Shown: positions 1 to 63,606 of the stretch, one piece after another
How the letters are laid out: every line of letters starts with the position of its first letter
Position numbering within the stretch: position 1 is the stretch's first letter
From: Apostichopus japonicus
Lineage: Eukaryota > Echinodermata > Holothuroidea > Aspidochirotida > Stichopodidae
DNA: 64,000 nucleotides
Direction of reading: 5' to 3'
Assembly: GCF_037975245.1 (NCBI RefSeq)
Contig: NC_092576.1
Span: 41,606,611 to 41,670,610, forward strand
The notes under the pieces: model-generated
What the model saw: only the letters and a program-made list of their open reading frames with translations
Databases searched by the model: none
Told to the model about the DNA's origin: nothing
Program-made: the position numbers and the translations under genes

Positions 1-1980
1 ATCATTTATTCTGCTTCTGAATGATAGAATGACCAAATGCATATTAGCACAACGTATAACAAGGTAAACATTACGGATATTTTTTAGTCGGTTTGATATA
101 GAATCAAATAACTCGATTACAATAAATTACAACTATTGGAGAAATTTAAACTATATTAATTAATACTCTATCACATTGAACATCTTTAACTGAGAAATTA
201 TACTTTATATTAAAACGGAACAAGCCCTAGTCTAATACTTTTGTTTGATTTTTTTAAATCTTTAATGAGTTGTTATTCGGAATTATTCGTAGAAATCACG
301 TAATATATTGTATTCGGTTTAAACACAGAGTACCGATGGATTAGAAAATTATTGCCCATGAAGATTAAACAATGTTCTGCATTCTAAAATAATTGACTCT
401 ACCAATGTCCTAATTTTTCGTGTCCTGGAACAAAAACCATACTTTTTGCTCTTTGGTTTCGTTTGTCTGTAGTTGGTGGTTTTAAGATGTTAGGTAGAAA
501 ACAAGAACACCTCTTTCTAAGAAGAGTGAGAGACTTAATATTTATATTTTAGACCAGTGGCAGATATTTAGTAAGATTTATGGTTATAATAATGACTTAT
601 GATGACAAAAATGTAAGTGAAATAACAATAAGCTTAATACTTTTTGTAAGGATGGACATTTTTTCTTTAAACAGATGCATTATCTCAGCTTTGTTGAAAA
701 TAACAAAGCATAGTGGGATAAAGGTTGTACCAGATGGATATATTTAGACTATGAAGGAGCATATTTTTACAATGCAGGTTAATTGAACTATAATTTCAGT
801 GTTCCTCATGTCCAGCTGGTCTTATTAAGTATATACGGTTTTGTACTGGGAAATTTCTATACGCAAAATGAGTCAAGACATGTACGTCCCTCAACATTGC
901 CCATGGGCATGATCATGCACAAACGGCTCATCTCTAATTCTTTGAGTACAATCCATCTTTCATACAAGTGTAAAGATAACATATGTATGCTTTAAGAATT
1001 GACTAACACGTTGCTTTAATGATGGCATTTATCAATAATAACGAACGAACAGTAGGCCGCTACTAATTTTTCTTACTAGGCCTTGACCTGAAATCACTTA
1101 GAATATTATAATAGAATGTATAGTTCGTCAAATGCACACATTTTAAAGTACTTAATTTGTAAGTGATCAAAACGGCTGTCTTTTCTCTTTACATCAGCAC
1201 AATGATGTCCATTTGACCGTTTTTGAGTACTACGTACAAGTAAGTATTACAAGTATATCACAGTATAGTGTTACCATTTCATACAAATCTCTTAAAGCTA
1301 ACGGCTCGAATCCAAACGGAAGTGTAGCAGAACTTTTACTGAAGAATACACCAGTGCATGTCTGAATAACGTACCTACTAATGGTTAAATAACCATGTGC
1401 TAGTAATATGAAACTATACCTTCACTACCTTAGTCACAGAACTGATGATATATATTACGGTATAAATATTTAGAATGTTGTGTGGATGAAAGAGTTTACT
1501 TGTCTTTGAAACCAGATAAATATGTACCAATATTACAATTATTATTTTACAACATCAACTTGAAGATGAGTGCCGTTAGATCAAGGAGTTGGTCATACAC
1601 AATACTCTCATCATATACAATGGTTCTGTGATTGGCTCATATGCAACAACATGACTGATAGGAATCAATCATAGTTCCAGCCTGGATTATCAGTTATTCT
1701 TGTAACCTTCGCTTACTGACTCAAATCACCTTCTTAACCCCTATTTCCTTGTGTTTTGCAGCAAAATTTAACCTAAACATCGTATTATTAAAGTTTCAAA
1801 TCACGTTTATTTTTTTTCAGGATAACATAATTGTATAGCGTTTACTACTTTTAAATTGAAATGTATTTGCAAGCAAACATTTGCAAGGACAACTATTAGA
1901 GCATAACTTCAAGTACAAATAATCGAAAACATGTACTAAACATATAAAGGAAGACACTTTAATAACTACGGTTCACAAAT
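1..1980. other. No gene recognised
   Basis: AT-rich sequence with only short open frames and no splice-bounded coding segment that I could tie to a protein family on either strand. The longest frame, about 70 codons near 783-995, has no recognisable motif. No RNA gene or transposon end was seen. Confidence 0.5.
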
Positions 1981-7366: not shown

Positions 7367-22127
<14,761 letters not shown>

Positions 22128-22239
22128 TACGTAGAGTAAATGAAAACGTGTTACAAAAGTTATCCAAAGAAAAGCAGGACCGGGTAACTTCGTTCCTAAG
22201 GGAGATTCATTTAGCTCAAAATGCTCACGTATTTCTACG

Positions 22240-24341
22240 TCATTCCATGTACGGCACTTTTACTAAGATGTTGAAGCCACACCAGAGTTGGTTGTTCAGT
22301 GACATTCTATAACACTTATAGTTGAATCTATGACTTTGTAGCACAATGGAAACGTTCGCACTTACTTTGTTCCTCGGTCTCTCGACCTTTACTTTCGTTT
22401 TAGTAATGGTAAGGAAGCTAGTGCGTGACTGAAACATTGCATTAAATATTCTTCAATACGACATTTTGTTCTTTCCTAACAGTATTCTACTGAAGAAAGT
22501 CAAATGGCAACAACAGCAGCACAATTATCCGCGAAGAGGGACGCCTGGAAGTAAAATGGACAGGGGGATATGGTGAGAAGAATCTTGCGTAGCCCGTTCT
22601 GTGCAGTCTCTGGCTGCACTGCGTGCGGGCAGCGTGGAGTCCAGGTGCCGTGGCCCGGTAGGGGTCCTGGGGGCAGATTTCCCTGGAAGCTCTTGTAATT
22701 AGGAACTCGTGAGATATTATCTGGCCTTCTGGAACCGAAATAAAAATATATTTTGTTTTATTAGTTTACATGTTAATATTGATCCTAATCTGTTAGTACA
22801 AAATATGATCAATTGTAACCAGTATAGTAAAATGTTTAATCGACTTTATTTCAATTAAGATATTGACTTATGGTAAACAAATAAACTTTTAGCTAAAGTT
22901 ATAAGAAGAAAGGCACTTCCTGTCACCCTAATTGTAGGCCAATTCCTACCCCTCCCCCGTTCCTTGTCCCTGTGCTATGAACTCAAGTGAATGGCAGAGC
23001 CGATCGACCCTTTGCCTCCATGCTGCATATATATGGCTTTCTGTGTACCTTAAATTGCTAGTGATATATTGCATAGGCCTACATTCACATATAACTTATC
23101 GTGTATGCGTAAGCTGACCTTGTGAAGCTTTGGACTGCATGTATTGTAAATTTATAGAAATATTATATATAACGTAAAATTGAATTTCGGGTGTAACTAT
23201 CATCATCATTAATTGAGTCTGATTCAAAAACGCAAGAGAACATGTTAAGGGAGTGGAAAAGAAAAGAAACAGAACTATGATATATCTTATTGTTCTGGCT
23301 TAGAACACTGTGGCAGTTTTTTTTTTTTTTTTTTTGAGGGGATGGCAATTTACATATAAGCAATAAAGTATCTCTACGAAATTTGCGCTAATATTCAAAC
23401 CAATGATTCCAAAGACTTAAATTTGCACAACTCTACAGTGATACCAGTGGTATGTTTTATCATCAGCATGTGAATTCTTAAAATGTATGTTATCGTCTTT
23501 AGTACTATAATCCTCTGTTACAATACAATTGCAAAGCTTACTTATCTCCTTTGAAATCATATAAAATTGTTATAACAAAGAGAAAATATTTTGATTGAAA
23601 CATTTTGAGAGCGCTTCATATTGTCTCCGATATTCCCACGCTAAAATCACCTCTCCTATATTTACCCTCCAACGATTATTTTAGGCTACATGAAAAGAAA
23701 ATATATGTGAAATACGAATGTGTATACCATTAAACTATTGTTATTTAAAGGACATCTTCGACTCGCCGACACCTCATCAGACAGAAGCTATAATCATCGA
23801 CAACTGGAAGTATTTTTCTCGATCAATTAAAGCCCATTATGCATTCCATTATAAACTTGAACTAGCCAATCCCTCACTCTACAATCGTTTTATCATAAAT
23901 AATCACACAATCCTGCATATTTTTTCATTTTCCCCTCAGTTTGTTGGCCTATTTGCAGGATCGAGAGGAACAAGAAATTAAAAATAAATGGAGTCCAGTT
24001 CGACACACGGGTTTAATTAATATTTCGATATTTTGTTTGAATATTATTGATTCTTCAGGCCGTCGAAATTGAACGCAAATTGCCGCGGTCTTAATTCAAA
24101 GCAAACAATTAGAATTTAAAGTATATTTACATGCCTACACACACGCCCATTGTATCCCGTAAGGAATGTGTATCCGATATGTCTGTCATTGTCTTGTACC
24201 GACCCTGTAAGTATGTAAACACAAGAGCATATTAGTTAGTTAGTGGGCTGCTTTAGGTAAACCCATTATACGTCCGGTAGCGAGGTGATTGCAATAGGCA
24301 TACGGTGTGTAACATATAGCTATATCAGAATTCACACGGAT
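22240..24341. other. Intergenic region between the pseudokinase receptor and NXPE-A
   Basis: The two genes diverge from here, so promoters for both are expected, but I could not identify core elements. A GC-rich patch at about 22530-22720 contrasts sharply with its surroundings and may be a retroelement or foreign fragment; no frame in it was recognised. A poly-T tract lies near 23317-23333. Confidence 0.4.
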
Positions 24342-25432
24342 ATGACAATGGCAGATACTTTCGTGAGAAATTTGTTGAACTATTTCCAGTTAATTTTTGG
24401 TGTATTTTTCATAATTTCCTTTCTGCTTTATTTTGGTATAATTTTCGACAATGATTATGAAGCAAGACTGTCTATTCCCAAACCTCAACTGAGAAGAATA
24501 TCGAAGACAGGAAGATTAAAGAACGTAGACGATACAACACATAGTATGTATATCTAGTATTATAATTATATTGATCATAATTATATCATTAAATATAGAA
24601 TTATATGTAGTTATGTTCTATATTTTAAGCACTTTTAACTGCAAAAGTATGGATGAGAAATTCTATACGACGTTATATATGGTATTATGTACTTCTGTTT
24701 CATTTTCCTATGGTGGTCATTCCGTGGAAGTTAATATGTAATAAATTGTAGGGCTATATATGTTGCTCTCTGTATATAAGTATTTGTTAGAGAAGGCTAT
24801 TGATTTGGACAATCAAAGAGGAAAGAAGATGAAATGAGTTTTGCTTTATAGTCACCATCTGTTTGTACCAAGCTTCATAAGGATATGAACGTAACATGTA
24901 TCATTAATCTGATAAATTTTAAAACATAACTCATCAGCAAACAAAAAAGGAATCTAACAAATTAGGCCTTCAAAGGTATGCGCACGAAAATAGGTTGTAT
25001 AAACGTTAGGTTCGAGACACTAACGGATTGACCGATCGAGGAGCCATCATCTGGATTCGAACGCAAAGATGTATAGATCAGTTCAAGACTGGTACTCGTG
25101 TGTGTATTATACATGACAAGGCCAAGTAGCATGCTGTCAAGCTACAATTTAACTTGGAAGGAGTGCTAATAGGAAGAACATGTACGTGGGTATCTGTGTG
25201 TGTTGGCGCAGATGTGTATATGTATGGTCGTTACTGTGAATATCTATTATCGATTTCTTAGTTCCTAGCCTGTCACTAAAAATTCGATTGCAAGCCCGTA
25301 ACAGATGGTTCAGCTCAAAATGAAATATTTAATGGGCCTTATGCTCCCTAAAATGTCGTCATTACTGATTGCTCGACATTTTCGTAATTTTACCACATAA
25401 CTAAAATTATCCTGGCTTCGTAATTGAAGATT

Positions 25433-25496
<64 letters not shown>

Positions 25497-25527
25497 CTCA
25501 AGATATATATATATATATATATACTCA

Positions 25528-25599
<72 letters not shown>

Positions 25600-27248
25600 T
25601 TAGTCAATATCTTTGTTTTGTTTCAGAAATAGAAGCAATGAAACCTTCCACTAACATGTATGACGTTACCATTGATAATACTGGCCCTATTCTCCGTCAT
25701 CGTCATTTCATCGAGTCAATGAGTTTGAGAAGTAACAGCTCTGTTTCTGATACTAATTGGAATAACACAAAAGTCGGCCAACTTACTACTCTGACCATCA
25801 CAGTAGACATTCATACTTCTCCAACAACCATCTTTAGCGTGTTAGCAGTTGGCGATGATCATATCTTTGCTGCGAATCAATCGGGATATTCTTTTGGGAG
25901 CTTATCGATGATATTCACATTTACACCAAAGTTGCCCGGTGTGTATAAATTGTACGTAGAAGAGGTTCATAGCAACAATCAATTACAGCTTCCTGGAAGT
26001 CCGTTTCGTCTTGTAGTTTACGGTGATCCTGTTCACCTTCTTGACTTCGGTAGACTGGCTGATGAATTGCCGTCTTGTCAGTCCTTGTCCCAATCTACTC
26101 CATCGTGGCTTGATGGTGAATGGATAACTCGAAAGATAGCAGGAACAAAAAGAGGGGTCCTACGCAGCGGATGGGTTTTTCAACCAAGTTGGTGCAGTCT
26201 CGATATTTTCACCACAGAAGATCTGAAGCTGGCGGCGGAAACTCCTCCCCTAAAGACAATTGCCATTTTGGGTTCATCAATCGATCGCGGAATATTTTTC
26301 TCCCTTCTTGATTTATTACTTGCCAAAGACGAGAAATATAAATTAACAGACTCGGATTTTAGCAAATGTTGGGGTTTTGCTCAAGTGCAGGTTGGGAACT
26401 TAAAGATCATGTATCAGGACTTTCGCGTTGCGAGTTCTTTTAACATGAATGTGAGTAAAGATGGTAAATCAGAAGTTATTTGTCACGATGAAAAGGAAGC
26501 CAAATCAGGAAACTATGATCTATTTGGTGAAGGCATGCTATTTTTGAGTAATTATCTCTTTTCGAAAAAACCCTGGCCAGATGTGTTTCTCATAGCTATC
26601 AACAAAGCTGTTCAGTTAGAATTATTATTGAAGGCTATACCGTCATCATGGTCTGGTAGTATTTTTCCTCTCTATAACTTTATTGGTAAGGTGAGTGGGT
26701 TTTACACAAAAAATGGACTTGAGAAAAGTTATCGACTTGCGGAGAAATTGTTATCCTTAGACAACCGTATTCAATTGATCGATGGATTTGGAGTCGGCTC
26801 AGGAATGAGACACGACACCGAGTCGGGTCCGCTAATGATCAAGTCTAACCACTGGCATAAATGGTGCAACGAATTAGACGGTGAGATGAGAGTCTGTGGA
26901 AATCCAACGGAAATGATTGCTCAAGTATTATTAGGGAAGGTACTAGCACCAGTTGGAAAGGAAGCTTGGATGAAGACAGTTGGACCAAAGACAAAAATAA
27001 CATATCCCAGAGAAATAACGGTCTGTCAGGACTGTCCGGCATCTTTAATTCCTTTTCATATCAAACCAAATCCAAATATAACATGTTACGTTACAACAGA
27101 GGGTATTCTTGAAAGTTCCAGTGACGAAAAGAGAGTTTGGGATGGCACATTGTGTCCAGCGGAATGTCTCAAGATGGAACCTGTTGATGTCATAAATACT
27201 GAATCTGGTCCTGTTAATGTCAGGAGATGCAATTTGAGTTTACTTTAA
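24342..27248 (+). CDS. NXPE-type protein A: type II membrane protein with filamin-like and PC-esterase-like domains
   Basis: Two exons, 24342-24543 and 25627-27248, joined in phase 1 (donor A|GTATGT, acceptor TTTCAG), give 607 residues. Exon 1 encodes a short cytoplasmic head, one hydrophobic helix ([19 protein letters not shown]) and a lumenal IPKPQ segment. Exon 2 encodes a filamin/Ig-like fold ending [12 protein letters not shown], then a PC-esterase-like domain with [39 protein letters not shown] and SNHWHKWC, and a Cys-rich end ([22 protein letters not shown]). NXPE-family proteins are secretory-pathway or membrane glycoproteins of poorly known function. The start could be the second ATG at 24348. 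A possible polyadenylation signal AATAAA lies at 27636-27641. Confidence 0.85.
25435..25598. repeat. (TA)n microsatellite in the NXPE-A intron
   Basis: Interrupted TA repeats (with ATATACTCA and ATACATATA breaks) ending about 30 bp before the acceptor of NXPE-A exon 2. An open frame running from the repeat into exon 2 is an artefact of TA not making stops in that frame; the true exon begins at 25627. Confidence 0.85.
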
Positions 27249-40778: not shown

Positions 40779-43507
40779 ATGACGTTTATTTCACGAAATA
40801 ATTTCTTGAAGGATTTAAAGTTAATCAATATTTTTGCAGTTGTTCTCTTTTCCTACCTGGTTTACTGCGGAGTAAATATCGGTGAAGGATATGACCAAAG
40901 TTTAATTATTCCGCAACCGATGGGATCCTCGAAAAGCGCGGCGTTGGTAATACGATCACAGGATCCCACAAAAAGTATGTATTTTTAGAGTAATTATTTT
41001 AATTTACCTTCATAGACACCATGTTTATTAACAGTACTTTCTAAGAAACGAATAACGTTAATCTTCTAAAAAGTTTACTGTGTTTCATGTATGTTAAATA
41101 CTTTCAAGCAGTGAAGCATTACAATTGAACTTAAAATGCAACGCCTTAACGTGTGTTTAGCTGGATATGGTTGCGCTCTACGTCAACCTCTAGCAAGCAT
41201 TGGTCAGTTCTGAAGAAAAGAATCTCTGTAAGCCAATTGATTTTTTTTTTGGAGGAAGTAGTAAAATTTATAAATTAAAGATTAACTCCAGAACACCATT
41301 TCTGTTTTTGGTTAAAAAAAAGATATTGCTAACCTGCAGGAGCCGTGCCTCGATCAGGCTGACCACATTGACCCCTGTTTTGTACCTTTTTGTCAGAAAA
41401 ACTGCTTCATTCCTGCTTGTACTTGCTAATCGTCGAATATCGTCTGCACCCTTTGCATCCCAAGGGTCTTGATCGTTAGCGCTCAGAGCATGCTGCTGCT
41501 CGCCCCGATACTTCGAATGGCTTATAAAATATACAGCTAATTAATGAATTACACTGGGACTATGATCTTGCCCATTCTGTGCCTGTGCTTTTTGAAACTT
41601 ATCTATCTTAATAACTATTAAGTGTTTCGCCAACCAATGTTTGTAAAGTTTTACCGTACAATGTATTGGATCATAATCAATCTGCCCACTACATTTACCT
41701 TGATGTGCACTATACATGTGCGTCCCCCCCCCCCCCCCCGCAAGAAAAAAATAAAAATCAAGGTTTCAACAATGACAGACAGGCTAAATGGGTCTTGAAA
41801 GTAATCTTGTAATATGGCTACTTATACCAACTTACAACCTTTCGAAAATGCATTAAAGTTAATAAAACTATTTTTGTTCTGCTTCCAGTGATAGATATGA
41901 AACCTTCCAATTTTTATGACGTCACATTTGATGCTTCTGGCCCTATTCTCCATAATCGTCACTTGATCAAGTCAAGTATTTTAAAAAGTAACAGCTATGT
42001 TTGTGATGATGGCTGGAATAACACACAAGTTGGTCAACTGGTTACTCTTACCATTGATGTAAACGTAACCACTTCCAGAACGGTCCGCTTTTATAGCGTG
42101 TTAGCAGTTGGAGAAAATCACATATTTGCTGCAAATCAATCGATTTTGCCTGTTGACAGCTCACTTGTCAAATTCACATTCAGACCGAGATTGCCAGGTG
42201 TGTATAATTTGTATGTAGAGGAAGTACATCGTAATGAACAAGTACAGCTTCCTGGAAGTCCATTTCATCTTGTAGTTCACGGTGATCCTGTTCACGCTGT
42301 TGACTTAGGTAGACGTGCTGATAAATTGCCGTCTTGCCAGACCGTCTCACAGATTAGACGATCATGGCTTGATGGTGATTGGATAACGCGAAAAATAGCA
42401 GGAACTAAACGAGGAGTTCTACGCAGCGGATGGGTTTTTCAACCAAGTTGGTGCAGTTTCGATATTTTCACCACAGAAGACCTAGCAGCTGCGGCGGAAA
42501 CTACTTCCCTAAAGACAATTGCCATATTGGGTTCATCAATCGAGCGCGGAATATTTTTCTCCCTTGTCGATTTATTGCTTGCCAAAGAGGAGAAATATAA
42601 ACTAACCACATCGGATTTTAGTCAATGTTGGGGTTTTGCTCAAGTTCAGGTTGGAAGCTTAAAAGTCATGTATCAGGATTTTCGCGTTGAAAACGTATTC
42701 AAGGTGAATATAAGTGAGGATGGGAAATCTGAAATATTATGTCACGACGAAAAGGAAGCGAAATCTGGAAATTATGATTTATTTGGTGAAGCTATGCAAT
42801 TTCTAACACAATACTTATTCGGAAAGAATCCGTGGCCAGATCTGGTCGTAATAGCAATTAAGGATGTTGAAATCTTTAAATTACTCTTAAAAGCCATCCC
42901 TTCAGAATGGTCTGGAACAATTTATCCTCTGTACAACTTCAAAGCCGAGGACGAAAGGTTGTACGCAATGGCTGGTCTTAATCGAAGTTATCAACTTGCA
43001 GAGAAAGTTGTATCTCTAGACAACCGTATTCAATTGATCGATGGATTTGGATTAGGCTCAGGAATGAGGCACAACACCCAGACAAGTCCACTAATGTTAA
43101 AATCTAACCACTGGCATAGATGGTGCAACGAATTAAACGGTGAGATGAGAGTCTGCGGAAATCCTACAGAAATGATTGCTCAGATATTATTAGGGAAGGT
43201 GATAGCACCAGTTGGAAAGGAAGCTTGGTTGAAGTCAATTGGATCAAGAACGAAAATTTCATTTCCCAGAGAAATAACGGTTTGTCAGGACTGTCCGACA
43301 TCTTTGATTCCTTTTCATGTAAAACCAAATCCAAATTTAAAATGTTACGTTACAACAGAAGGTATTCTTGAAACGTCCAGTGCCAAACAAGAGGTGTGGG
43401 ATGGTACATTGTGTCCGGAGGAATGTCTCAAGATGGAACCGGTTGACGTCATAAATACTGAATCTGGTCCTGTTAATGTCAGGAGGTGCATTGTGAATCT
43501 GTTATGA
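40779..43507 (+). CDS. NXPE-type protein C: type II membrane protein with filamin-like and PC-esterase-like domains
   Basis: Two exons, 40779-40974 and 41889-43507, joined in phase 1 (donor A|GTATGT, acceptor GCTTCCAG), give 604 residues. Exon 1 encodes a signal anchor (INIFAVVLFSYLVYCGV) and a SLIIPQP segment. Exon 2 is collinear with NXPE-A without gaps of note. It has the filamin-like fold (LPGVYNLYVEEVHRNEQVQL, GSPFHLVVHGDP), then [46 protein letters not shown] and the Cys-rich end. The GDS motif of PC-esterases reads GSS in both intact copies and in the pseudogene. It is closer in exon 2 to A and B than to any other sequence here, marking a tandem family. A possible polyadenylation signal AATAAA lies at 43875-43880. 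Confidence 0.87.
41200..41520 (-). other. Unrecognised reverse-strand coding-like stretch in the NXPE-C intron
   Basis: On the minus strand, about 41490-41320 reads as an open, protein-like frame (ANDQDPWDAKGADDIRRLAS, then RYKTGVNVVSLIEARLL). It lies in the intron of NXPE-C, less AT-rich than its surroundings. No family was recognised. It may be a retroelement scrap. Confidence 0.2.
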
Positions 43508-49540: not shown

Positions 49541-49598
49541 ATGGCGCCGTTAGCAGTATTAGTAACAATAATTCTGCTTCTATCAACGTCCACCTGTG
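49541..49598 (+). CDS. Ig-NACHT exon 1: signal peptide
   Basis: ATG at 49541 followed by a hydrophobic leader, MAPLAVLVTIILLLSTSTC, with donor G|GTAAGT in phase 1. The A-rich context CAAATATGG is acceptable for initiation. Confidence 0.8.
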
Positions 49599-52500
49599 GT
49601 AAGTAACTTAAGGAGCCTCTTTTAAGGAAGCTTATTTTTCTTTAAAGCGGAATGTACAATGCCCTGGCATGTTAACTTCCATGACTGTAGACTTCTACTC
49701 ATATGACCTTTATGTTAATTTACACATCTGTCTTAGATAAGTTTCGAGTAACGTCTCTCGACTACGGTGACAGTCAATTTCAAATCATAACAATCCTTAT
49801 TGTTGAGAAATCTGGAATATTTAAAGAGAGATTGATTGAAAAGTTTGATATTTGATTTTAGACAAAAGGTGCACTGAACCGTTAAAGACACTCCACCCTT
49901 TGATTTCCAAATAGTTGAAAACAATTTAGGGACGGATAATGATAAATGTAAAATTGAATAACTTTATACATATGAAACAGGAAACAAGTGACAAACATTT
50001 CTGTGAAAGAAATAAAATGCACAGAAACGCGTTATTAAAGGGGAACAATTGTAAACTGAAAGCATAACCGATGAAATTGTAATACTTTGAAGTGGCTTGC
50101 AAATAGAAATATTTTGATAAGGATTTACTTACAAATAAGTCATGAGTAACATTATTATATGAAAGCTTGATGGATCCTATGTTATTTATCCTTAGATGTT
50201 TGTTTTAAGTTTGCTAGTAAAGCCCTTATAAAATATTTTATTTTATTAGAACTGGATTTGAACCAGTAGCATCGGGTCTATACAACTTATGTGAAGTACC
50301 AACTGCGTTGTATAGGCATTTGGTGTTGGCGATCCATACACCTTAGTTATGCATAATTTATTTAATTACAGCAGCTACAGAACGTGGGTGTAAGAGTCCA
50401 CAATACCTTGAGATTGGGAAATCTGCAACGATCGTTTGCCATTTTGAGGACACTTTTTCTAGCATCTTTTGGTACTATAAGGCAGACGTAGAGTTAGATC
50501 AACCAACAGTGACCTATGAAGATGGACAGAGAGAGGGAGATGGGTATCTTTCAGGAGAATTTGACATTCGATCAGATGGATCATTGATAGTAAATAACGT
50601 ATCGGTGGAACATGAAACTACATTCATTGTGATTGAGTTTGAAACGGTTGATAAACTACCTAACCGATATGACATCAACATTAAAACTATCAGTAAGTAC
50701 TACCAGTAAGTCTTTAGATCAGTTTGAAGGATAGTCGCTTCAGAAAATTAATTTTAAACAACAACATATTCAACTCAACACGTAAATGAAACGTAACATC
50801 TTAAATATATACAGACCGTGTCGATATAGCATTGTTTCCCTAGAACATGGCCCATTGCTGGGCGCAATATTTTGAAGAAAGAATGGTATATTTATTTTAT
50901 ATGCAGTATATATTAATTTCCGTTTATCAATTGAATGATTTAGAAGAAACTCCAGCTTAACATACCTTAACGAACGTTCTTAGCTTTACTCTATTGTAAC
51001 TAATACACATTCGTTCATATTACTTTGTTGTATTCTTCCATTTAAACCGATGTTTACCTTAATTCTTACTGAACAAATACCAGACAACACCATTCTATAC
51101 CCAGTTGCGACATTTGACAAAACCACAATTGTCCTCTACATATTTGTTTCATTATCTTCTTCATCCAGTTCTTCCGAATCCAACGTACCCTATTGTTGAT
51201 GATTGTACCGTTATCGGTGATGTCTGCTATGTGGAATGGCTCCAGCAAAGGTCAATAATATGTCGAATACAGCATGCTAGACCTAGCGTGGCGTTAACCT
51301 GGGTAGTTAGAACTGTAGGAGGTGATAAATCGGTAACCAACGAAACGACTTATTCAAGTCTAGCCAACGCATGGATAAGCTCCCTATCTGTGGACGATCC
51401 GTTTATACACTCATCATATCTAGCACTGCTTGTATGTAAAGCTAATGATCAATATAACTTGTTGGATCAAACCGAATCTCTGGTGTTGGTTCATAACAAA
51501 GACGACGACAGCCCTGTGTCAACGACGGTTGATTTACCTGTGGAACGACACACTAGGATAGAACTTCCATGTCCCGACGGTGAATATAAGCTACTAGTAT
51601 GGGAGAAGATCGAACCAAATGGCAACGCTTCCAGTACATCCCTAGCTTTCGACATCAATTCTGCCGGTACAACATCGATTTTATCTAATGAGTTTGAGCT
51701 AAATGGGGGGAAGTTATCCATACGTGACGTGCAGTTACGTCATGGAGGTGTATATCGCTGCACCTACAGTGACGATCAGACGGAGAGAATCAACTTGGTC
51801 AATCTCATTGTATTTGGTATGCTTCTTATTTTAATTTTGAAAATAGAACTCGGTTTTGGAATTTGCACCAATTACGTATGCATATCTTTACAATAGTGCA
51901 GATATAGTATTTTTACGTCATTAGTCAGTTGTTTCGGATTGAAGTTTATATTATGTGTCTTTTCCGCTGCTATTCATGCAAAGTTTCCTTTGATGATTGA
52001 TAGGAAGGCTGATGTCATTAGATAAATTCCATTTTGCGCCATATTTCATTTCCTTAAAGGACTAGCAAATACATTCATTGCATATTTTCGCAAAACCCCC
52101 ACCCATAAATTCCGCAAATCAACTTCCTACTTAGATGGACGGGGCTTGTTTTTCCAAATAAAATTAATATGTCTCAGTTATTCAGATATATCAGATGCCA
52201 TATAAAACAATAAACATATGTAAATATTATATATAATATATTAGGGTATTCCGTTGTAACCAGAAGAGTGTACTAGACTGAAATGTAAATGATAAACTAA
52301 AGCATACGTCGCAACATTCACATTTCTTAAACATTATTTTGTGTTTTGTTTCATAATGCAGTTACTCCAGTCCCTGAATACCCAATAATAGACAGATGTA
52401 CTCACAAAGGATATTGTGTGCTTGACGTGAACTATGAGGGGACATTGTCCTGTACAGTGAAAGGCATAAGCCCGGAAGTCAATCTAGAATGGAAGGCATA

Positions 52501-55500
52501 CTTCGAAGAATCACAAAAGCTGATATCATTCCATAATCAACAGTTGAACACAAAGTCCAATGGTGAAACGTCAGATGTCACCCTTACTACAGAGTACAGT
52601 GTGAAAGATCCAGTTGTTAAAAGGATAACTCTGGAATGCAAAGCTATAGGACCGAACGCTAATCTTTTTAGTCTCAGCTCCAAGCTTGATTTATTGTTGA
52701 AAGGAAGTAAGTAACAATTTGTGCCTTTTCTTGATATAAATGATGTCATAAATATTCCAGAACGTGACTGAATTTTCCATAAATTGATATAACCGCGTTG
52801 GCTAAGCATATATTGGTATTAATAAGATGGTGTTTTGCTTGAAAAAAATTGTCCTGAAAATATATTTGGCTTTATCTAGTAATGATAAAAACATTTTTTA
52901 ATATTTTTTTTAAATTTCTTTTAAATACAAAGTATTCTTATTGGAAATTGTCAACTCTTTCTTTGATGTGTATATGAATATTTGTAACGCGTTCATACAT
53001 TCTTTTTTACTTACCTTCAGATAACCAGTCCACCACCGAGAAAGCCGCCACAGAGGAAACCAGTAATCAACCATCAATAGCCACCACTATAGTCATTATC
53101 GTTATAATCGTTTTGATCATCATCATCATCATCGCTATTGCGGCTGTTTGCTTTTGGAAAGGTATTAAAAAAATAACACAAGCAAATTTTATATACAGTT
53201 AGAAAGAACATAGATTAAACATATTGATTTGATTTCAGTCGTATTCTTTACAAGCGTATATAATATGACATCGATTCATCAATTAATTTTTTTTTCTTCG
53301 AAGCGTACCTAAGGAGGAACAGGATCAGGAAGGATCTTTCATCAAAATCAGTCAATGGAGAGGTGATATTATATTATTTTTTATTTTGTAGTTTAAGGGC
53401 CATTAAAAGCACAAAAAATTATATCATAATTTAAGTACATTTTTGAGATAATACAATTTCCAGCATATAATATAATGCGAACTTTGGTAGACTCACCTTT
53501 TTTATATCAATCAGTCTGAATAATAGTTTCATGTTTGTTTTCCTTTCTCTTCTATGTCAACAGAACATCCCCATGCTACAGGACAAAGGTAGTATTTACA
53601 TAAGACCCTATAGCACAGTGCTACAATATTGTATGACTTTTCGAGTGCCTGACAATGGTATAGACATAACGAGATAATGAGCCGATTTATGATGGGCTCC
53701 AAAATACGGTTGTTATTCTGTAAAGTTGCTGTAACGGTCATAGTGGAAAGGCACTTTTCGGAATTTGCATCATACTATATTTACACGCATCACATTAACC
53801 TGCAATTTATTTCAAGAAATAAACGTGTTTGTGCTTGAATGCATTGTCGCTTGGAGTTCATACGATGGCATCAAAAGATGGTTTATAACATATAAATTAA
53901 AGTATTTGCTACTTACGCTCAAATACGCTGAAAAAGGAGGTTGTCTTAACGCATTATCACTATCAATTGTGATATATTTGAAATAGTTACCAGAGAAGAT
54001 TGCTCACTTTACCCAAATATGTTTTAAATGTGTGCTGTCTTTTTCACTTTTGATTGATCTGATAGAGCGAAGCAAAACATAGCTTACATTAGATCCCAAT
54101 AATAAGCATCTGTTAATCCTGTCTGTAACATTCCAAGTAGGTTACGCTATTTGTACTGGGATTTTCATGGACGGGGGGGGGGGGGCGGTGTTCAAAGCGC
54201 ATGCAGTCTCATTTGATATGCACAAACAGTCACTAGAGTGATTTTAAGAGAAGTGTGTCTTTTCTGTATTAGGTCTATTATGTTATATGGACACTTTCTG
54301 AAAGTAAAAACAATGTGTCGTGTAGCCGTTGTTATAACTTTACAACCAGTTCTTTATTATTTCCTCAAAAGAAAGCTAGAGTATTGTATTTTGGAATACC
54401 ATGCCTGACATGAAAACTATAAAATGTAGAACAGAAACATGGAGATCTTAATTAGTAAAGCACTTTTTATACAATTCTCTGGGCAACATGCCTAAAATAA
54501 AATGCCTAAAGAAATGCATGTCAATCATATTTTTTAACTTAGGCATTTCCTCAAGAGATGTCTGACATGTGTTTTCTTTCTTATTTCCTTTAGAACTGGA
54601 CAAGTTTATTTCCCAGCTTAAATCAACTTACGAGAACTTTTACAGCGCAGTTAAACCAATTCCGTTTTTTTCGAGCAACTGCACGGTACATGAACTATAT
54701 GTCGAGGGTGGCATTGACTACTTAGCAAAAAGCAAACCTACTACTGAAACTTGGAACCCTTTGGACTCATACAAAAATATGTTTTCTCATCCCAGTATGA
54801 CCGGTACTCGTTGGATGATCGAGGGTGGACCAGGGTACGGTAAATCTACACTCTCGCTACAACTTGCATATGAATGGTGTAATAACATTGAAGGGTCTTC
54901 TATGTGTGACGTGGAATTCTTTTTCCTTATCAGACTTAGGCAGCTGAAAGGAGTTTCTTCGATCTACGAAGCAATTAAGAAATTTATTTTACCAATAGAT
55001 TCTACGTTTTCTACTGTTGATATCCAAAGGTTCATAACTAACAGTTCATCTGTGTTAATAATCTTAGATGGTTTTGATGAGTATCCCGATAGAGAAGTTC
55101 CCTCGAACTCTGATGTCTTCAATATCATCAAGCGAACTATGTTCCCTGAACACCGAGTTGTATTAACCACAAGATCATCACATCTTCCAGAGGACTACGC
55201 ACCTCAAACTAATCGTATCAGGCTTACCGGGTTCAACAGCAAAGCCCAGGAAGAATACTTGCAAAAAGCTGTGACGATCAACGGATATAAATCTGCAGAG
55301 AGCACCATCCAGGAATGGCTACAAGAGAATCCTATCTTAAATGATCTCTGCGTGGTTCCTCTTTTCTTCGTGATGTATGCACATCTTAGTTTAGACAGTG
55401 ATGCCCTAAGAAACTGTACTTCCGTGACGAGTTTCTTCCGCTACATGATCACGTGTCTGCATAGTCATTTGAAACTAAAATTCAAAGATGAAAACGTCGA

Positions 55501-58500
55501 TTGTTTTGACCTGAATGAAAACGCTCATCAAAAACTGGATGAGTTATGTTTCAGTTATCTCAACGGTCACTCATATAACCCTGATATAGACAAACACGAA
55601 TTAATTCAAAAGCTCGGAGAAAGAAATGTTGAGAAGTACTTGAAAATTGGGATACTGCGGGAAGAAGAAAGCACAGAGGTATCCGAGAAGCCTTCAATCC
55701 AGGCTTCAGATCATGTGAAGAATGTTTCAAAAGTTCGTTTTTACCACAGCCTGTTCTGTGAGTGGTACGCATCACACCATGTTGCTGATGAGTTGGAAAA
55801 GATTAGCAACAGTCCAGCACAGGGAAACATGGATGAGATCTTGGAGGACTTAGACCCTTCTCATCTTCAGTACGTTTATAGATTTGCATGCGGAATAAAA
55901 GCAGAAGCAGCAAAGCGCATCCTGAATTATCTACAGATAGCTGAAGGCAATTTCAAGTTTTCTATTTTGTGTATCCTTGAGCAGGGTGGAAACATAGATG
56001 CGATTATCGACAACGTACGTCACGTTTGTTCTGAGACATTACAGATTAGGACTCAGGATTCAAGAATAGTACAGAGGTCTGTGATACAATTGGCGGAAAT
56101 CGCTGTCAGTAAGAAGGTAACGTATTACAATATATGTAGATGGAGTTGATCTCTGATAAGCTGATCAAATGTTAATTACATTGTTTATCATGGTAGATTA
56201 AAGATAAGTTTGACACATTTCATTTAGAATGAAACAGTTTGATATCTCAAATAATAGGTATGACTTATTCATCCCACTTCCTCCAATCTATTTGGCCCAT
56301 TCATCTTACAAGCACCATTCCAACAATGTCCTCAATTGTTTGTGCCAACATGGAGTGTTGTTTAAATAGAAGAATATAGGCTATGCCCCTATCAAAAAAG
56401 GATCAGTCTTAGTAATAGTACTGGTATATTAATTCAAAACAACATTCGCATCCCACAAGCTTTAGAAACTTTGTAATCCACGAAACCATTGATCATGTTT
56501 TAAGGCTCCTGCCTGAGCATATCACTGTAAATTCTTTGAACATTGTTGTTTGAAATCAAGTGAATGGAATATAATAGCAGAACAGATAAAGAAAGCAACT
56601 TTTCACATATCGTCACTTGATATGATAGACAACAATTTACAGTTATGAAAGATTTCATTTTTAAATATATATTTACCTACAGATTCTGATATCTAAATTG
56701 CAACTAATAGAATGCTTCCAGCAAGTGGATCCCACAAAGAAAGAAATCATCTTGGATTCCAAAGTTCGTTTGCCACTACTGAATGGTATCAAGTCATTGT
56801 GGATAGAACAGACGGGCAAGAGGTTTAGCCAGGACGAAATGGTTGATATCTTCAATCACATCTCAGAGTGTGAACATCTGAGTGAAATCCGGTAAAGTTC
56901 TACTTCATTAATCTATTTGATAATATTCGTAGCCTTATACTTTGCCTTTCCCATTCGATACTAACTGTCTCCTTGGCGTCGTCGTTCAACTTTCCGTTAT
57001 AATCGTCGTTGGTGTCATTTTCGTAATCGTTATCGTCGAGGTAAGCGATCATTGCCTTAATGATTATTACTGCAGTTGTCGGCGATGTCTTTGCCGCTGT
57101 CGTCTATGTAATCATCACCGTAATCGCTGACCTAGTTACTATCGTCGCTGTGGGCTATAGCTGTTCTTGTCGTTATCATTGCTGATGCCTCAGTTAATCT
57201 TTTTGGCCCTTGTCGTATATCGTTGCTGCTGACGCCGATCTGGTTCTCATTCTCGTCATCTCTGTACTATCGTTGTCATTACAACTGTCGTGTTGTTTTT
57301 AGTTTCGTTCTTGATGTACATACCAACATTGCTTGTATTAGAAAATAAGAGTCGCATTTGCGATATCTCTCACATTCTAACGAATGCTCCTTGTTCCAAG
57401 TGAACTTTTTAAATATTTAATATAAATCAGATGGATTTTGGTTAACGGGTGATTATAGCTAAAGATAGAAGAAATAGAATTCGTCCGAAAAAACAACATT
57501 GCAGGGGTGGTGTGTTGGTGTGGGACGGGTGGACCACTAACCCTATAGGTCTCCGGCGGAAAGGGTGCTTGAGTCGGGCTTGGCCAAGCTTGATCAGTTA
57601 TTACACTGCACCACACACTGCTGCTAATAGCTATAATCCAATTTAACCGTTAACCCAATAAACAGAGTGATATATTTACAAATCACAGTACAAAAACCTA
57701 AATTAGGCAAATGTTTTCCAAATGTAAAACGGTAACAGATGAAACATTTTTCAAGTATACTTTTATTTTCAGAATTTCATACGCGTTGCTACCTTATAGT
57801 TTCAAAGATGATCGCTTACTGGAACCACTACGTGCTAACAGAATGCAAGGTAAAGATTATCTGGGAAATGTTTTTATGTTATTTCATATTTCACTGCTCT
57901 TTGTCGTGTGGGACATCTCCATGTTTCTCAGAGTTTGTATAGATGCAGCTATAATATTCTTTATGTGATTCCATAAGTTATGTTTAATATGCTATATTTT
58001 CACAAATTTAGTCAGCACGTCAAGTGAACGAAACAATTTATTTTATTTTAATAATACGACAATATTATAATACGACAAAAAATAATCAAAAGGCATTGTA
58101 AAAAAATGAACAGCCATGACTTGGAACTTAGTGATGTGTAATCTATGTTTCTGTGATTGAACAGATTTCCAAACTTTGATTATTTTGAGCATACATTTGC
58201 TGACGTTAGTGCCTATCATTGGAATGTACAATAACACAATGAGAATGAATTGTTAAATATAATTTTGCTTTCAAATTTTGTCTCATGATTCAGTTCTTTG
58301 GTACCCTTCAGAACAATGGTTCATTCTTGATCTACATTCTGGAAATTGGCAGGTATGAAAGCAACATTTCTTTAGTATGATTAATATGGGGAATACCTTC
58401 CCTAAATTACAGACAAAATACAGACGCAGTAGTTGCGTTGATGTTCCTGAGTAATAGTTTAGCTATTTTTACCAAGAAACTGTCAAATTGGCAATTCTTC

Positions 58501-59503
58501 TGTTTTTTATAGTGGTTTATCTTTTTCTCTTGAGTATACACAAATTCCTCACACCTTGTTTCTTTATTTCACTTCCATTTTTAAGAAACACATCCCTTCT
58601 GACCTTTTGTGCTAATTTGATTTTTTAATCATATAAACTCTGACTAATATATTGTTCTTTGGATAAACAGTAAGTCATTGGACGACATAAGTTTGCAGGA
58701 AGCTATCACAACTAACTGTTTTGCTTCCTTTGACGTTTTAAGTTGATTCCATGAGTTGCCTATGTTTTATATATGTTCTTTTACTACTATAACCAGAACT
58801 TCATATTAAGCGAAAACGCCGTAGAGCTATAACAAAACTGTTGTTTATTATTTGCAATATATTAAATCTCCTGTTTGTACACACATTTAGGTAATTTATT
58901 TGTTATTTCACAGCACAAGACAGGGCTTTTTTATCTGGCCGAGGATGATTACAAAAAAGTGGTAAACAATTAAGTTTAATACGGTATAAATCTGCGTGAA
59001 TTCAATTCTGGTTCAATAATACCGCCCAGAAGTAACATTTGTCCATGTCTCCATTCCTGCAGTCAACGACGAGGAGGAGAACCTTATATGTTATTAATTC
59101 CTGAATAATGTATACTTAGTTGTTAAAAGAAGGATGCATTTTCTCTCAAGAGATTGTGATTCTTATCCTCGGCTTATGAATTGTTAGTTATAGATGTTAC
59201 TTCAATACGATTTCCGCTGTTTAACTTTGAACATATACTGAGCCAATCCTACTGTAGATACGACATATTTGTAATAAATCGATATTTGATACACCTTTAA
59301 ACAGCCGTTCACTTTGTTCAATGGGGTAACATGACCCTTCCCATCATCCCCTCTGCCTCCATCCTTACATTTCTACCTACTTGCCATAGTCTCCGTTGTC
59401 CATCACGTAACGTCGTAACTTAAGTGATTGTTTATTACGGCAAATTAACTGCTTTCTCTCGTTTTCTTTCCAGGTTGATGTCTTCCAAGATATTAACAAC
59501 TAA
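49541..59503 (+). CDS. Transmembrane Ig-NACHT receptor (four Ig-like domains, membrane helix, cytoplasmic NACHT NTPase)
   Basis: A 13-exon model, all GT/AG with matching phases: 49541-49598, 50372-50692, 51169-51816, 52362-52706, 53021-53161, 53304-53362, 53563-53587, 54594-56116, 56683-56891, 57773-57849, 58312-58352, 58914-58961, 59474-59503. The sum is 3525 nt, 1174 residues plus stop, with no internal stop. Order: signal peptide 1-19, Ig1 to 126, Ig2-Ig3 to 342, Ig4 to 457, membrane helix about 480-502, a basic 30-residue linker, NACHT and helical region 533-1040, and a C-terminal part with at most one LRR-like unit. Walker A is GGPGYGKST (610-618), Walker B LDGFDE (690-695), sensor-1 VVLTTRSSHLP. 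RFYHSLFCEWYA resembles the winged-helix segment of NLRs. Known NLRs are cytosolic with LRR sensors; here Ig domains would take the sensing role outside the cell and NTP-driven oligomerisation the output. The function is inferred. Confidence 0.85.
50253..50310 (-). repeat. tRNA-like SINE remnant in intron 1
   Basis: On the minus strand an A-box-like GCAGTTGGTA (50306-50297) and a B-box-like GGTTCAAATCC (50263-50253) lie at nearly tRNA spacing. An acceptor stem and a clear anticodon arm cannot be formed. It is probably a tRNA-derived SINE head rather than a tRNA gene. Confidence 0.35.
50372..50692 (+). CDS. Ig-NACHT exon 2: Ig1 (V-like, atypical)
   Basis: A 321-nt phase 1-1 exon. The B-strand Cys is in ATIVCHFED, the Trp in SIFWYYK, and SDGSLIVNNVSVEHE is the D-E region of a V-like fold. 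The F strand reads TTFIVIEFE, so the usual Tyr-x-Cys is missing and no canonical disulfide can form. Two further Cys positions are absent too, apart from C near RGCKSP. Confidence 0.75.
51169..51816 (+). CDS. Ig-NACHT exon 3: Ig2 and Ig3 in one exon
   Basis: After acceptor CATCCAG. Ig2 has IICRIQHARPSVALTW and LALLVCKAND. A short DDDSPVST linker leads to Ig3 with IELPCPDGEYKLLVWEK and GKLSIRDVQLRHGGVYRC. Phase 1-1. The open frame begins upstream of the exon, but the codons before 51169 are intronic. Confidence 0.85.
52362..52706 (+). CDS. Ig-NACHT exon 4: Ig4
   Basis: After acceptor AATGCAG. PVPEYPIIDRCTH opens as Ig2 does (NPTYPIVDDCTV), which suggests these two domains arose by duplication. 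Cys in GTLSCTVKG, Trp in VNLEWKAY, Cys in ITLECKAIG. Donor GGAA|GTAAGT, phase 1-1. Confidence 0.8.
53021..53362 (+). CDS. Ig-NACHT exons 5-6: membrane helix and basic linker
   Basis: Exon 53021-53161: a Thr/Glu-rich stalk (QSTTEKAATEETSNQPS), then an unusually Ile-rich helix with six consecutive ATC Ile codons, ending AAVCFWK. Exon 53304-53362: YLRRNRIRKDLSSKSVNGE, a strongly basic stop-transfer segment that fixes the NACHT side as cytoplasmic. A 25-nt exon (53563-53587, NIPMLQDK) follows. Confidence 0.8.
54594..56116 (+). CDS. Ig-NACHT exon 8: NACHT NTPase and helical/winged-helix region
   Basis: A single 1523-nt exon, as is usual for NACHT exons of NLR genes. The start shows LDKFISQLKSTYENFYSAV then CTVHELYVEGG. 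P-loop GGPGYGKST, Walker B LIILDGFDEYP, sensor-1 VVLTTRSS, then LTGFNSKAQEEYLQKAV, NPILNDLCVVPLFFVMYAHL and VRFYHSLFCEWYASHHVADE. All key NTPase residues are present (P-loop Lys616, acidic Walker B), so NTP binding is expected. The frame upstream of 54594 is intronic. Confidence 0.9.
56683..59503 (+). CDS. Ig-NACHT exons 9-13: short C-terminal region without an LRR array
   Basis: Exons 56683-56891, 57773-57849, 58312-58352, 58914-58961 and 59474-59503. They encode LLNGIKSLWIEQTGKRFSQD, EMVDIFNHISECEHLSEIRI, SYALLPYSFKDDRLLEPL, EQWFILDLHSGNWQ and HKTGLFYLAEDDYKKV. The first two pieces resemble a single degenerate leucine-rich unit of deuterostome NLRs. If the donor at 58962 is used the protein ends VDVFQDINN; if not, it ends VNN with TAA at 58971-58973. 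Confidence 0.7.
56942..57300. repeat. TCG/GTC-rich low-complexity tract in intron 9
   Basis: A degenerate triplet-like region rich in TCG, GTC and ATC words, giving artificial Val/Ile/Cys frames. No gene recognised. Confidence 0.5.
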
Positions 59504-59586: not shown

Positions 59587-59938
59587 TCACAATCTAAAAC
59601 GGTTTAACATTTCAACTTACGTTTTGTGGAGTCCACTCGCCAATGTCACCTTCGAAATGAACGTACAGTGATGGAACCAACTTTGGTCTTACCAAAGTGA
59701 CACAAAGTTGTTTCACAGATTGGTAGAGACTTATTTTACATGTGTAAACAATCCATCTTATCACAATCTAATGCGGTTTAACATTTCAACCTTAGTTTTG
59801 TGGAGTCCACACGCCAATGTCACCTTCGACTTGAACGTACAGTGATGGAACTAACTTTGGTCATACCAAAGGGACACAAAAGTTGTTTCACAGATTGATA
59901 GAGACTTATTTTATATGTGTTAACATTCCATCTTATCA
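59587..59938. repeat. Two 174-bp tandem repeats in the Ig-NACHT 3' UTR
   Basis: Units 59587-59760 and 59761-59938 share TCACAATCTAA, GCGGTTTAACATTTCAAC (first copy ACGG), TTTTGTGGAGTCCAC, CGCCAATGTCACCTTCGA, GAACGTACAGTGATGGAAC and GTTGTTTCACAGATTG. They begin about 84 bp after the stop codon, before the polyadenylation signals, so they are probably transcribed. Confidence 0.85.
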
Positions 59939-62457: not shown

Positions 62458-63606
62458 TAGTGTTTACACGGGTCCAAAAATCGGGAACCGGGTACCCGAG
62501 GGCCGTTTATCCTCGTGTATCACGATTTTCAAGAAATTACATATTGGATGCTGTAATAAATGCATTATATTCTCTACTGACAATGTTTTCATGTTCAAGT
62601 ACGTAGGTGTAAGATAAGGTATAAAACCTCCCTCAATAATTTGCTTGTTTCTTTCATTAACTTGTTAATAAATTAATTATTTAATTATAATTAGCATTAC
62701 TACTAACATCGCACTGCCGCCGCTGCTTATGCTAGCTCGTGCACGTCTATTGGATCAACCCATATAAATATCCAATTTAGCTCTTAAACAGTTGTTACTA
62801 CTACTACTATCTATTATGCAGGCCAAGGGATCGCATTAGCCGCGAGATTGCGCGATTCGCGCAATTTGATCGCATTTGGAATAAACGATTAGTGAAAAGC
62901 TACTTGCGATTACTATTTTTTAGTTATCCCGTCTATAATCCATAAACATCGCGTAAAATTCCTTGTCAGCCTTTCCTTCTTTGAAATAAACGAATGAATA
63001 AATAATAATTTCTTCCACATGGTAGCCTAACACCACACTAAGTCAATGAGAAATCTAGCTAAGCCTAACCATCTGTTTATTTGCTGGAGTTGTGACGCAG
63101 TTATAAGACATCCATGGAATACTTTTGTTATTGCTGTTACGTTCGACCACATGGTTGCCTAACACCACACTAAGTCAATGGGGGTAGTCTAGCCTAGTCA
63201 TCTGTTTATTAGCTGAAATTGTGACGCAGTTATAAGATATCTATGGGAAGCTTTCGTTATTGCTGTTATCTTCGAACACATGGTAGCCTAACAACACACT
63301 AAGTCAATGGGAAATCAGCCTAACCATCGGTTTGCATTTTTTTTTTTTTAACAATCACACTTTGCGTATGATTCGGGAAATAAATTAGGAACCGGGTAGT
63401 ATCGCGTCGAACGGACTCCTTGGTTATTGCTGTTATCTTCGACCACATTGTAGTCTAACACCACAAAGTCAATGGGAAATCTGCTTAACCGTCGGTTTGC
63501 CATTTTTTTTTTTTTTAAATCACACTTTGCTTAGGATTCGGGTAATAAATAAGGAACCGGGTAGTATCACGTCGGGCGGGTACCCGGATAACCCGTGCAA
63601 ACACTA
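62458..63606. mobile_element. Non-autonomous hAT-like element with 8-bp target-site duplication
   Basis: Ends are TAGTGTTTACACGGG (62458-62472) and its inverted partner CCCGTGCAAACACTA (63592-63606), one mismatch in 15, continuing into CGGGTACCCG on both sides. Flanks are a perfect 8-bp duplication, CTATATAT (62450-62457 and 63607-63614), the length typical of hAT transposition. No transposase frame. Inside are four repeats of a segment starting CACATGGTAGCCTAACACCA (about 63016, 63148, 63277 and 63443) with spacing 132, 129 and 166 bp, and two copies of GGAACCGGGTAGTATC. Confidence 0.85.

Follow-up and report, generated by a model that had tools for sequence, protein, structure and literature searches.

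The closest described counterpart of the gene reported here is AjNLRC4 of the sea cucumber Apostichopus japonicus, described in 2021 as a receptor with extracellular immunoglobulin (Ig) domains and a cytoplasmic NACHT domain (Chen et al., PMC8699970). Its printed layout places an Ig-like domain (residues 31-132) and an Ig domain (251-353) outside the cell, a transmembrane (TM) helix at 483-503, the NACHT domain at 600-757 inside, and a further TM helix at 776-795. According to the accessible text of that paper, AjNLRC4 is located at the membrane, binds microbes by its Ig part, forms a dimer that is attributed to the Ig domains, is internalised, and binds beta-actin with its NACHT part. A 2025 paper, which cites the sequence as GenBank MN607598, describes in its accessible sections a caspase-1/MLKL death pathway for AjNLRC4 and the motif 177-LRTD-180 (PMC11932488). 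Here we examine a gene that starts at position 49541 of a 64,000-nucleotide stretch of the same species (NC_092576.1, positions 41,606,611 to 41,670,610; “the window”), and we consider it highly probable that this is one gene for a type I membrane immune receptor, an AjNLRC4 paralogue working as proposed below.

Two further descriptions bear on this gene. AjNLR-new (PIK48001.1, 1197 aa), described in A. japonicus in 2026, resembles the window protein in joining Ig, TM and NACHT parts in one protein of similar size but, judged from its description, differs in the inverted topology that its authors claim (PMC13133943). The NLRs of Chiridota heheva, from another sea cucumber lineage, share a NACHT domain and an Ig V-set domain with the window protein, whereas the domain listing in the accessible text mentions no membrane helix (PMC8913654). 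A preliminary description of the window had presented its gene as a new wiring of an inflammasome-type switch; this novelty does not hold, the same design having been in print for A. japonicus since 2021 in the accessible part of PMC8699970. An enlarged NACHT family is in itself no new finding either, since an expansion of “CARD domain-containing” NLRs is mentioned for a sea cucumber in a passage naming japonicus (PMC13228809, accessible text). No published count of Ig-TM-NACHT genes in the A. japonicus genome was found in a literature search that reached few subscription papers or supplements.

Domain structure of the window gene

Rebuilding the gene by hand from the window gave nine exons between 49541 and 56891 with AG/GT borders, matching phases (1, 1, 1, 1, 1, 0, 1, 0 and 2 at the ends of exons 1 to 9) and a single open frame of 1109 codons (Table 1). 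The preliminary description had counted 13 exons and 1174 codons; its first nine exons stand on splice sites, phases and frame, whereas no convincing homologue was found for exons 10 to 13 in the three short paralogue flanks compared, and neither the exon count nor the length found support.

The domains that it had listed were recovered. The hydropathy window ranked second (2.10) covers residues 4-22, the predicted signal peptide, and the one ranked first (3.99) covers residues 481-499, followed at 504 by the basic cluster KAYLRRNRIRK, i.e., a membrane helix with a basic flank. A Pfam search of the 1135-residue model made from exons 1-10 identified two of the four Ig-like domains (V-set and Ig_3, Table 1) ahead of NACHT at residues 607-757. 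The other two are weak: exon 4 alone reaches C2-set_2 at E 0.055, and the first half of exon 3 has no Pfam match. Because these two segments match each other across paralogues (E 1e-5 to 2e-3), we read the ectodomain as a probable V-C-V-C order of Ig domains. The NACHT domain scores 56.5 bits against a curated cut-off of 26.7 (E 4e-15), and Walker A, Walker B and sensor-1 are intact (P-loop GPGYGKS at 611, ILDGFDE at 689, and TTR within TTRSS at 724). The features of the AjNLRC4 type, i.e., an N-terminal signal peptide, Ig domains, and a helix between Ig and NACHT, are all present in the window gene.

Relationship to AjNLRC4

When up to one mismatch is allowed, the 22-base core of the printed ectodomain forward primer for AjNLRC4 matches a single place in the genome, at 4.50 Mb of contig C16 (C16:4497307). 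At this locus (L044) both qPCR primers match without mismatches and two expression primers match with 1 mismatch each, against 5-10 mismatches between the same four primers and the window gene. A model of L044 was chained along the exon plan of the window gene, and the printed residue numbers provide a check on it. In this model LRTD occupies exactly residues 177-180, GTPQYLEL, with which the expression construct starts, is at 31, and the helix spans 480-501; the P-loop follows at 608-612 and a second hydrophobic stretch at 778-794. The phases of the model (1, 1, 1, 1, 1, 0, 1, 0) are those of the first eight exons of the window gene, and the printed siRNA fits best across the junction of exons 4 and 5 of the model, with 2 mismatches in 19. 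These matches indicate that L044 is the AjNLRC4 gene. The “IN” primers in Table 1 of PMC8699970, as given in its accessible text, do not match L044, and the recombinant intracellular part used there may therefore derive from a different sequence.

The window gene lies on the same contig, shares with AjNLRC4 the eight-exon plan with its phases and the order of signal peptide, Ig, TM helix, micro-exon and NACHT, and places the TM helix and NACHT at nearly equal residue numbers. The two genes differ in position, being ~37 Mb apart, and in sequence, with 40% identity in the NACHT exon and 31% over 446 ectodomain residues; LRTD, which is said to bind caspase-1, reads VRTV in the window protein (by eye). 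The window gene is thus a paralogue of AjNLRC4.

A large gene family with a shared exon order

Searching the genome with the NACHT exon identified 85 places and the Pfam NACHT model 106, which merged into 168 NACHT loci, a lower bound (at least 168) obtained from the best candidates scored. Ig exon 3 gave 120 matches, the window included, and exon 4 gave 149. A NACHT exon follows on the same strand, 2.2-10.6 kb downstream, in 52 of the 120 exon-3 matches, and within 12 kb of these 120 there was no NACHT exon upstream and none on the other strand. In 1000 random placements, for which every contig except C16, C12 and C7 was assumed to be 30 Mb long, such pairs numbered 0.8 on average and never more than 5. 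The paired loci make up 42 of 55 NACHT loci on C16, 8 of 48 on C12, 1 of 2 on C10 and 1 of 37 on C7, and 51 of the 52 also have an exon-4 match upstream of NACHT (91 of the 149 exon-4 matches were used).

In 14 of 15 paralogue loci, AjNLRC4 included, the interval from exon 4 to NACHT contains an exon of phase 1-1 that encodes a strong membrane helix; the opposite strand has one in none of the 15. Between this helix and NACHT, the window and 10 of the 15 paralogue loci (11 of 16 in all) have a phase 0-1 micro-exon with an IPMM/IPML-like, i.e., xPM(L/M/I)-like, motif; examples are exon 7 of the window gene, L044:4405-4435, and those at L051, L053 and L056. Because 52 exon-3/NACHT pairs keep their order and 14 of 15 loci contain the membrane exon, Ig-TM-NACHT genes are, as judged from the genome, a large family with dozens of members. 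The identical exon order in dozens of paralogues likewise argues that the exon chain of the window gene is real, beyond what chance would give.

Exons 3 and 4 also occur with no NACHT match within 12 kb downstream, at C11:3.74-3.97 Mb and on C16 outside the pairs, and therefore proteins other than NACHT receptors may carry this Ig ectodomain.

Probably one gene rather than two, and the possibility of a relic

The conserved order bears on whether the window holds one gene for a surface receptor with Ig outside and NACHT inside, as the preliminary description had it, or two adjacent genes, i.e., one for an Ig protein, secreted or in the membrane, and one for a separate cytosolic NACHT protein. 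Both the two-gene arrangement and the possibility of a pseudogene draw on the fact that the window locus is known from genomic DNA alone. Two genes would also be in keeping with the 1-kb intron ahead of the NACHT exon, with the NACHT loci that have no exon-3 match within 12 kb upstream among the matches listed (13 of 13 on C17, 8 of 8 on C22, 36 of 37 on C7 and 40 of 48 on C12), and with three C17 NACHT exons that begin RMEQF, a possible start of their own. However, order and strand are the same throughout the 52 pairs, phases agree along the whole chain in the window, and a micro-exon stands between the membrane helix and NACHT. No in-frame Met precedes the exon 8 acceptor, and the first Met of the window NACHT exon is its residue 62, beyond the conserved start block. 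The first Met lies at 30-33, also beyond this block, in 15 of 30 NACHT rows, and 5 of the 30 have no match to the motif. In addition, all of these parts are joined in the published AjNLRC4 protein, whose positions, as given in the accessible text, fit the exon chain. Since order, membrane exon, micro-exon, the missing start and the AjNLRC4 protein agree, two adjacent genes are unlikely, to the point that we give them almost no weight, and the single-gene claim is supported.

A pseudogene, or a family relic that is rarely spliced, is improbable as well. Relics of Ig exons with stops do occur on C7, but all nine exons of the window gene are open with intact splice sites, and its P-loop, Walker B, sensor and winged-helix residues are kept.

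Membrane topology

The basic cluster after the sole strong helix of the window protein favours an arrangement with Ig outside and NACHT inside. By the positive-inside rule, a basic cluster that follows a helix lies on the cytoplasmic side. The reverse orientation, with NACHT outside and Ig inside, is claimed for AjNLR-new from a TMHMM prediction, from staining with antibody and from the binding of recombinant NACHT to cells (PMC13133943, accessible text), but the first hydrophobic stretch of the window protein is N-terminal and resembles a signal peptide, and its only strong helix precedes KAYLRRNRIRK. An inverted prediction would arise if the signal peptide were counted as a membrane helix, and this may be the origin of the topology claimed for AjNLR-new, a protein that we compare by its description. 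For the window protein we regard the inverted orientation as very improbable.

The printed layout of AjNLRC4 includes a second TM helix, and we considered and rejected a second helix at about residue 780, where the stretch is mildly hydrophobic and aligned with the HD1 segment of soluble NLRC4. Over 18 aligned rows this stretch has a mean hydropathy of 1.02-1.82, and the soluble HD1 segment of NLRC4 has 1.12 on the same scale. The published second TM helix of AjNLRC4 is thus probably the HD1 segment of its NACHT module. Because the printed second helix aligns with HD1 of a soluble protein and is only mildly hydrophobic, we infer a single membrane helix.

The NACHT module and its predicted nucleotide switch

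Vertebrate NLRC4 is a cytosolic protein with a CARD and LRR. A profile built from 18 NACHT exons of the family matches NLRC4 better than any other solved structure (E 8.5e-19), and the window NACHT exon resembles NLRC4 in its P-loop, Walker B, HD1 and winged-helix His. All 18 rows have the P-loop Lys, the Walker B Asp and Glu, the sensor Arg, the HD1 Pro and the winged-helix His, residues of the nucleotide switch. The winged-helix His (His384 of exon 8, the window being one of the 18 rows) is aligned to the NLRC4 His in FFHKSF, and NLRC4 His443, the winged-helix histidine, contacts ADP. These motifs suggest nucleotide control of the NACHT module.

The window protein differs from NLRC4 in its flanking parts, neither a CARD nor LRR having been found in the model. 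In the 1135 residues Pfam listed neither a CARD, PYD or Death domain nor any LRR family at E up to 1, noting that HMMER drops most matches above ~0.1 and that the model ends at exon 10; an LRR tail was rejected on this search. By hydropathy prediction, the protein has a signal peptide and a membrane helix, unlike classical vertebrate NLRs, which are cytosolic and carry neither.

Apparent loss of the ectodomain within the family

The Ig part seems to have disappeared from some NACHT groups, although Ig exons may sit more than 12 kb away (~20 kb for L030) or outside the best-scored matches. C7 has 15 exon-4 matches at 4.1-7.1 kb upstream of a NACHT match, each of them with in-frame stops. A relic at L057 (L057:1477-1743) has two stops in Ig exon 4, with the hydrophobic stretch and the NACHT exon still open. 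On C17, the three members examined, whose NACHT exon begins with RMEQF (L034, L035 and L037), have no Ig match within 12 kb and are candidate cytosolic forms.

A NACHT tree of 37 rows (L001, L003, L006, L063 and L065 were left out by hand because of long branches or membership of far groups) placed the window clade of five rows (99/98) beside a sister group of C17 genes that lack Ig (100/98), nested among Ig-linked genes; L030, L033 and L002 were labelled Ig-linked since they have exon-4 matches upstream. A second group (100/99) comprises the genes without Ig from C7, C22 and C12; the C7 relic stands as a third. The Ig label requires three changes on this tree, each forced by well-supported branches. 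With confidence somewhat short of even, we propose a large surface repertoire (a minimum of 51 loci that combine both Ig exons with NACHT, and probably more) in which diverse Ig ectodomains would be joined through a juxtamembrane micro-exon to one conserved NACHT switch, and from which repeated loss of the ectodomain would have turned membrane receptors into cytosolic NLRs more than once.

Proposed mechanism

We propose that the four Ig domains would bind a microbial or other ligand outside the cell, that one helix would cross the membrane, and that a short linker, basic and encoded in part by the micro-exon, would lead to a NACHT-HD1-winged-helix module inside. Ligand binding would draw receptors together through the ectodomain, and the NACHT module under the membrane would change its nucleotide state and serve as an assembly platform. 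Actin-driven phagocytosis, as it is reported for AjNLRC4, would then carry receptor and cargo into the cell. Since the window ectodomain is only 31% identical to that of AjNLRC4, the window paralogue would bind a different ligand. Surface position, ligand binding, dimerisation and actin-linked uptake are in print for AjNLRC4 only (PMC8699970, accessible text); by analogy the window paralogue would act as AjNLRC4 does, and oligomerisation of NACHT under the membrane, driven by ligand, is plausible.

Several observations weigh against this interpretation. The window gene is known as a genomic sequence, not as a transcript or protein; its C-terminal end, from exons 10-13 to the stop at 59503, found no support in the three short paralogue flanks compared (~0.6-2.1 kb past exon 9), where exon 10 in particular had no convincing homologue; and a single-sequence AlphaFold model of its NACHT exon was too poor to be used (mean pLDDT 36.8). 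The membrane exon was missing at threshold in 1 of 15 paralogue loci (L048), and the same scan of positions 1-49000 of the window, which hold other open frames, returned six forward hits and one reverse. The micro-exon pattern was chosen after two examples, 5 of 15 loci have no micro-exon, that of L040 is weak, and the opposite strand also matches in 3 of 16. The “IN” primers of AjNLRC4 have 10 and 12 mismatches to the gene that we located. Finally, caspase-1 binds the Ig part of AjNLRC4 and not its NACHT part, according to the accessible text of PMC11932488; here the Ig part meets a cytosolic protein, which is hard to square with a simple topology that has Ig outside.

If the family is expressed as its gene structures suggest, NACHT switches would, in an invertebrate, be the cytoplasmic part of a large repertoire of surface receptors, and the idea that an extracellular event can drive a NACHT module could then be put to a direct test. 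The comparisons made here also call into question the second TM helix of AjNLRC4 and, by extension, the inverted topology of AjNLR-new.

Exon coordinates and neighbouring features

Table 1. Exons of the Ig-TM-NACHT gene, in window positions
Feature	Position	Strand	Content and support
Exon 1	49541..49598	+	Start codon and predicted signal peptide (MAPLAVLVTIILLLSTSTC); ends in phase 1; donor GTAAGT; hydropathy window 4-22
Exon 2	50372..50692	+	Ig domain 1, V-type; phase 1-1; Pfam V-set 34-104; counterpart identity 57% in L039, 58% in L040
Exon 3	51169..51816	+	Ig domains 2 (C-like) and 3 (V-like); phase 1-1; Pfam Ig_3 292-327
Exon 4	52362..52706	+	Ig domain 4 (C2-like); phase 1-1; weak C2-set_2; resembles first half of exon 3
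Exon 5	53021..53161	+	Stalk and predicted TM helix; phase 1-1; equivalent in 14/15 paralogue loci
Exon 6	53304..53362	+	Basic juxtamembrane segment (AYLRRNRIRK...); phase 1-0; same-phase counterpart in AjNLRC4 locus
Exon 7	53564..53588	+	25-nt micro-exon (NIPMLQDK); phase 0-1; micro-exon with similar motif in 10/15 paralogue loci
Exon 8	54594..56116	+	NACHT NTPase with HD1, winged-helix and further helical region; Pfam NACHT E 4e-15
Exon 9	56683..56891	+	Short, 3′ of NACHT exon; counterpart identity 50% in L040, 44% in L039; no Pfam family up to E 0.1
Exon 10 (tentative)	57773..57849	+	Splice sites and open frame only

Elsewhere in the window, two similar long open frames lie on the plus strand at 25428-27245 (606 codons) and 41813-43504 (564 codons); both contain MKPS...YDVT, and no Pfam family scored above its cut-off in either. 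On the minus strand, 17027-22259 contains more Ig-type open frames (C2-set_2, E 5e-7 at 17027-17407), and another Ig gene probably adjoins here. Tandem repeats were identified at 59587-59938, 10392-10937 and 63015-63574, with units of 174, 278 and 129-165 bases, respectively.

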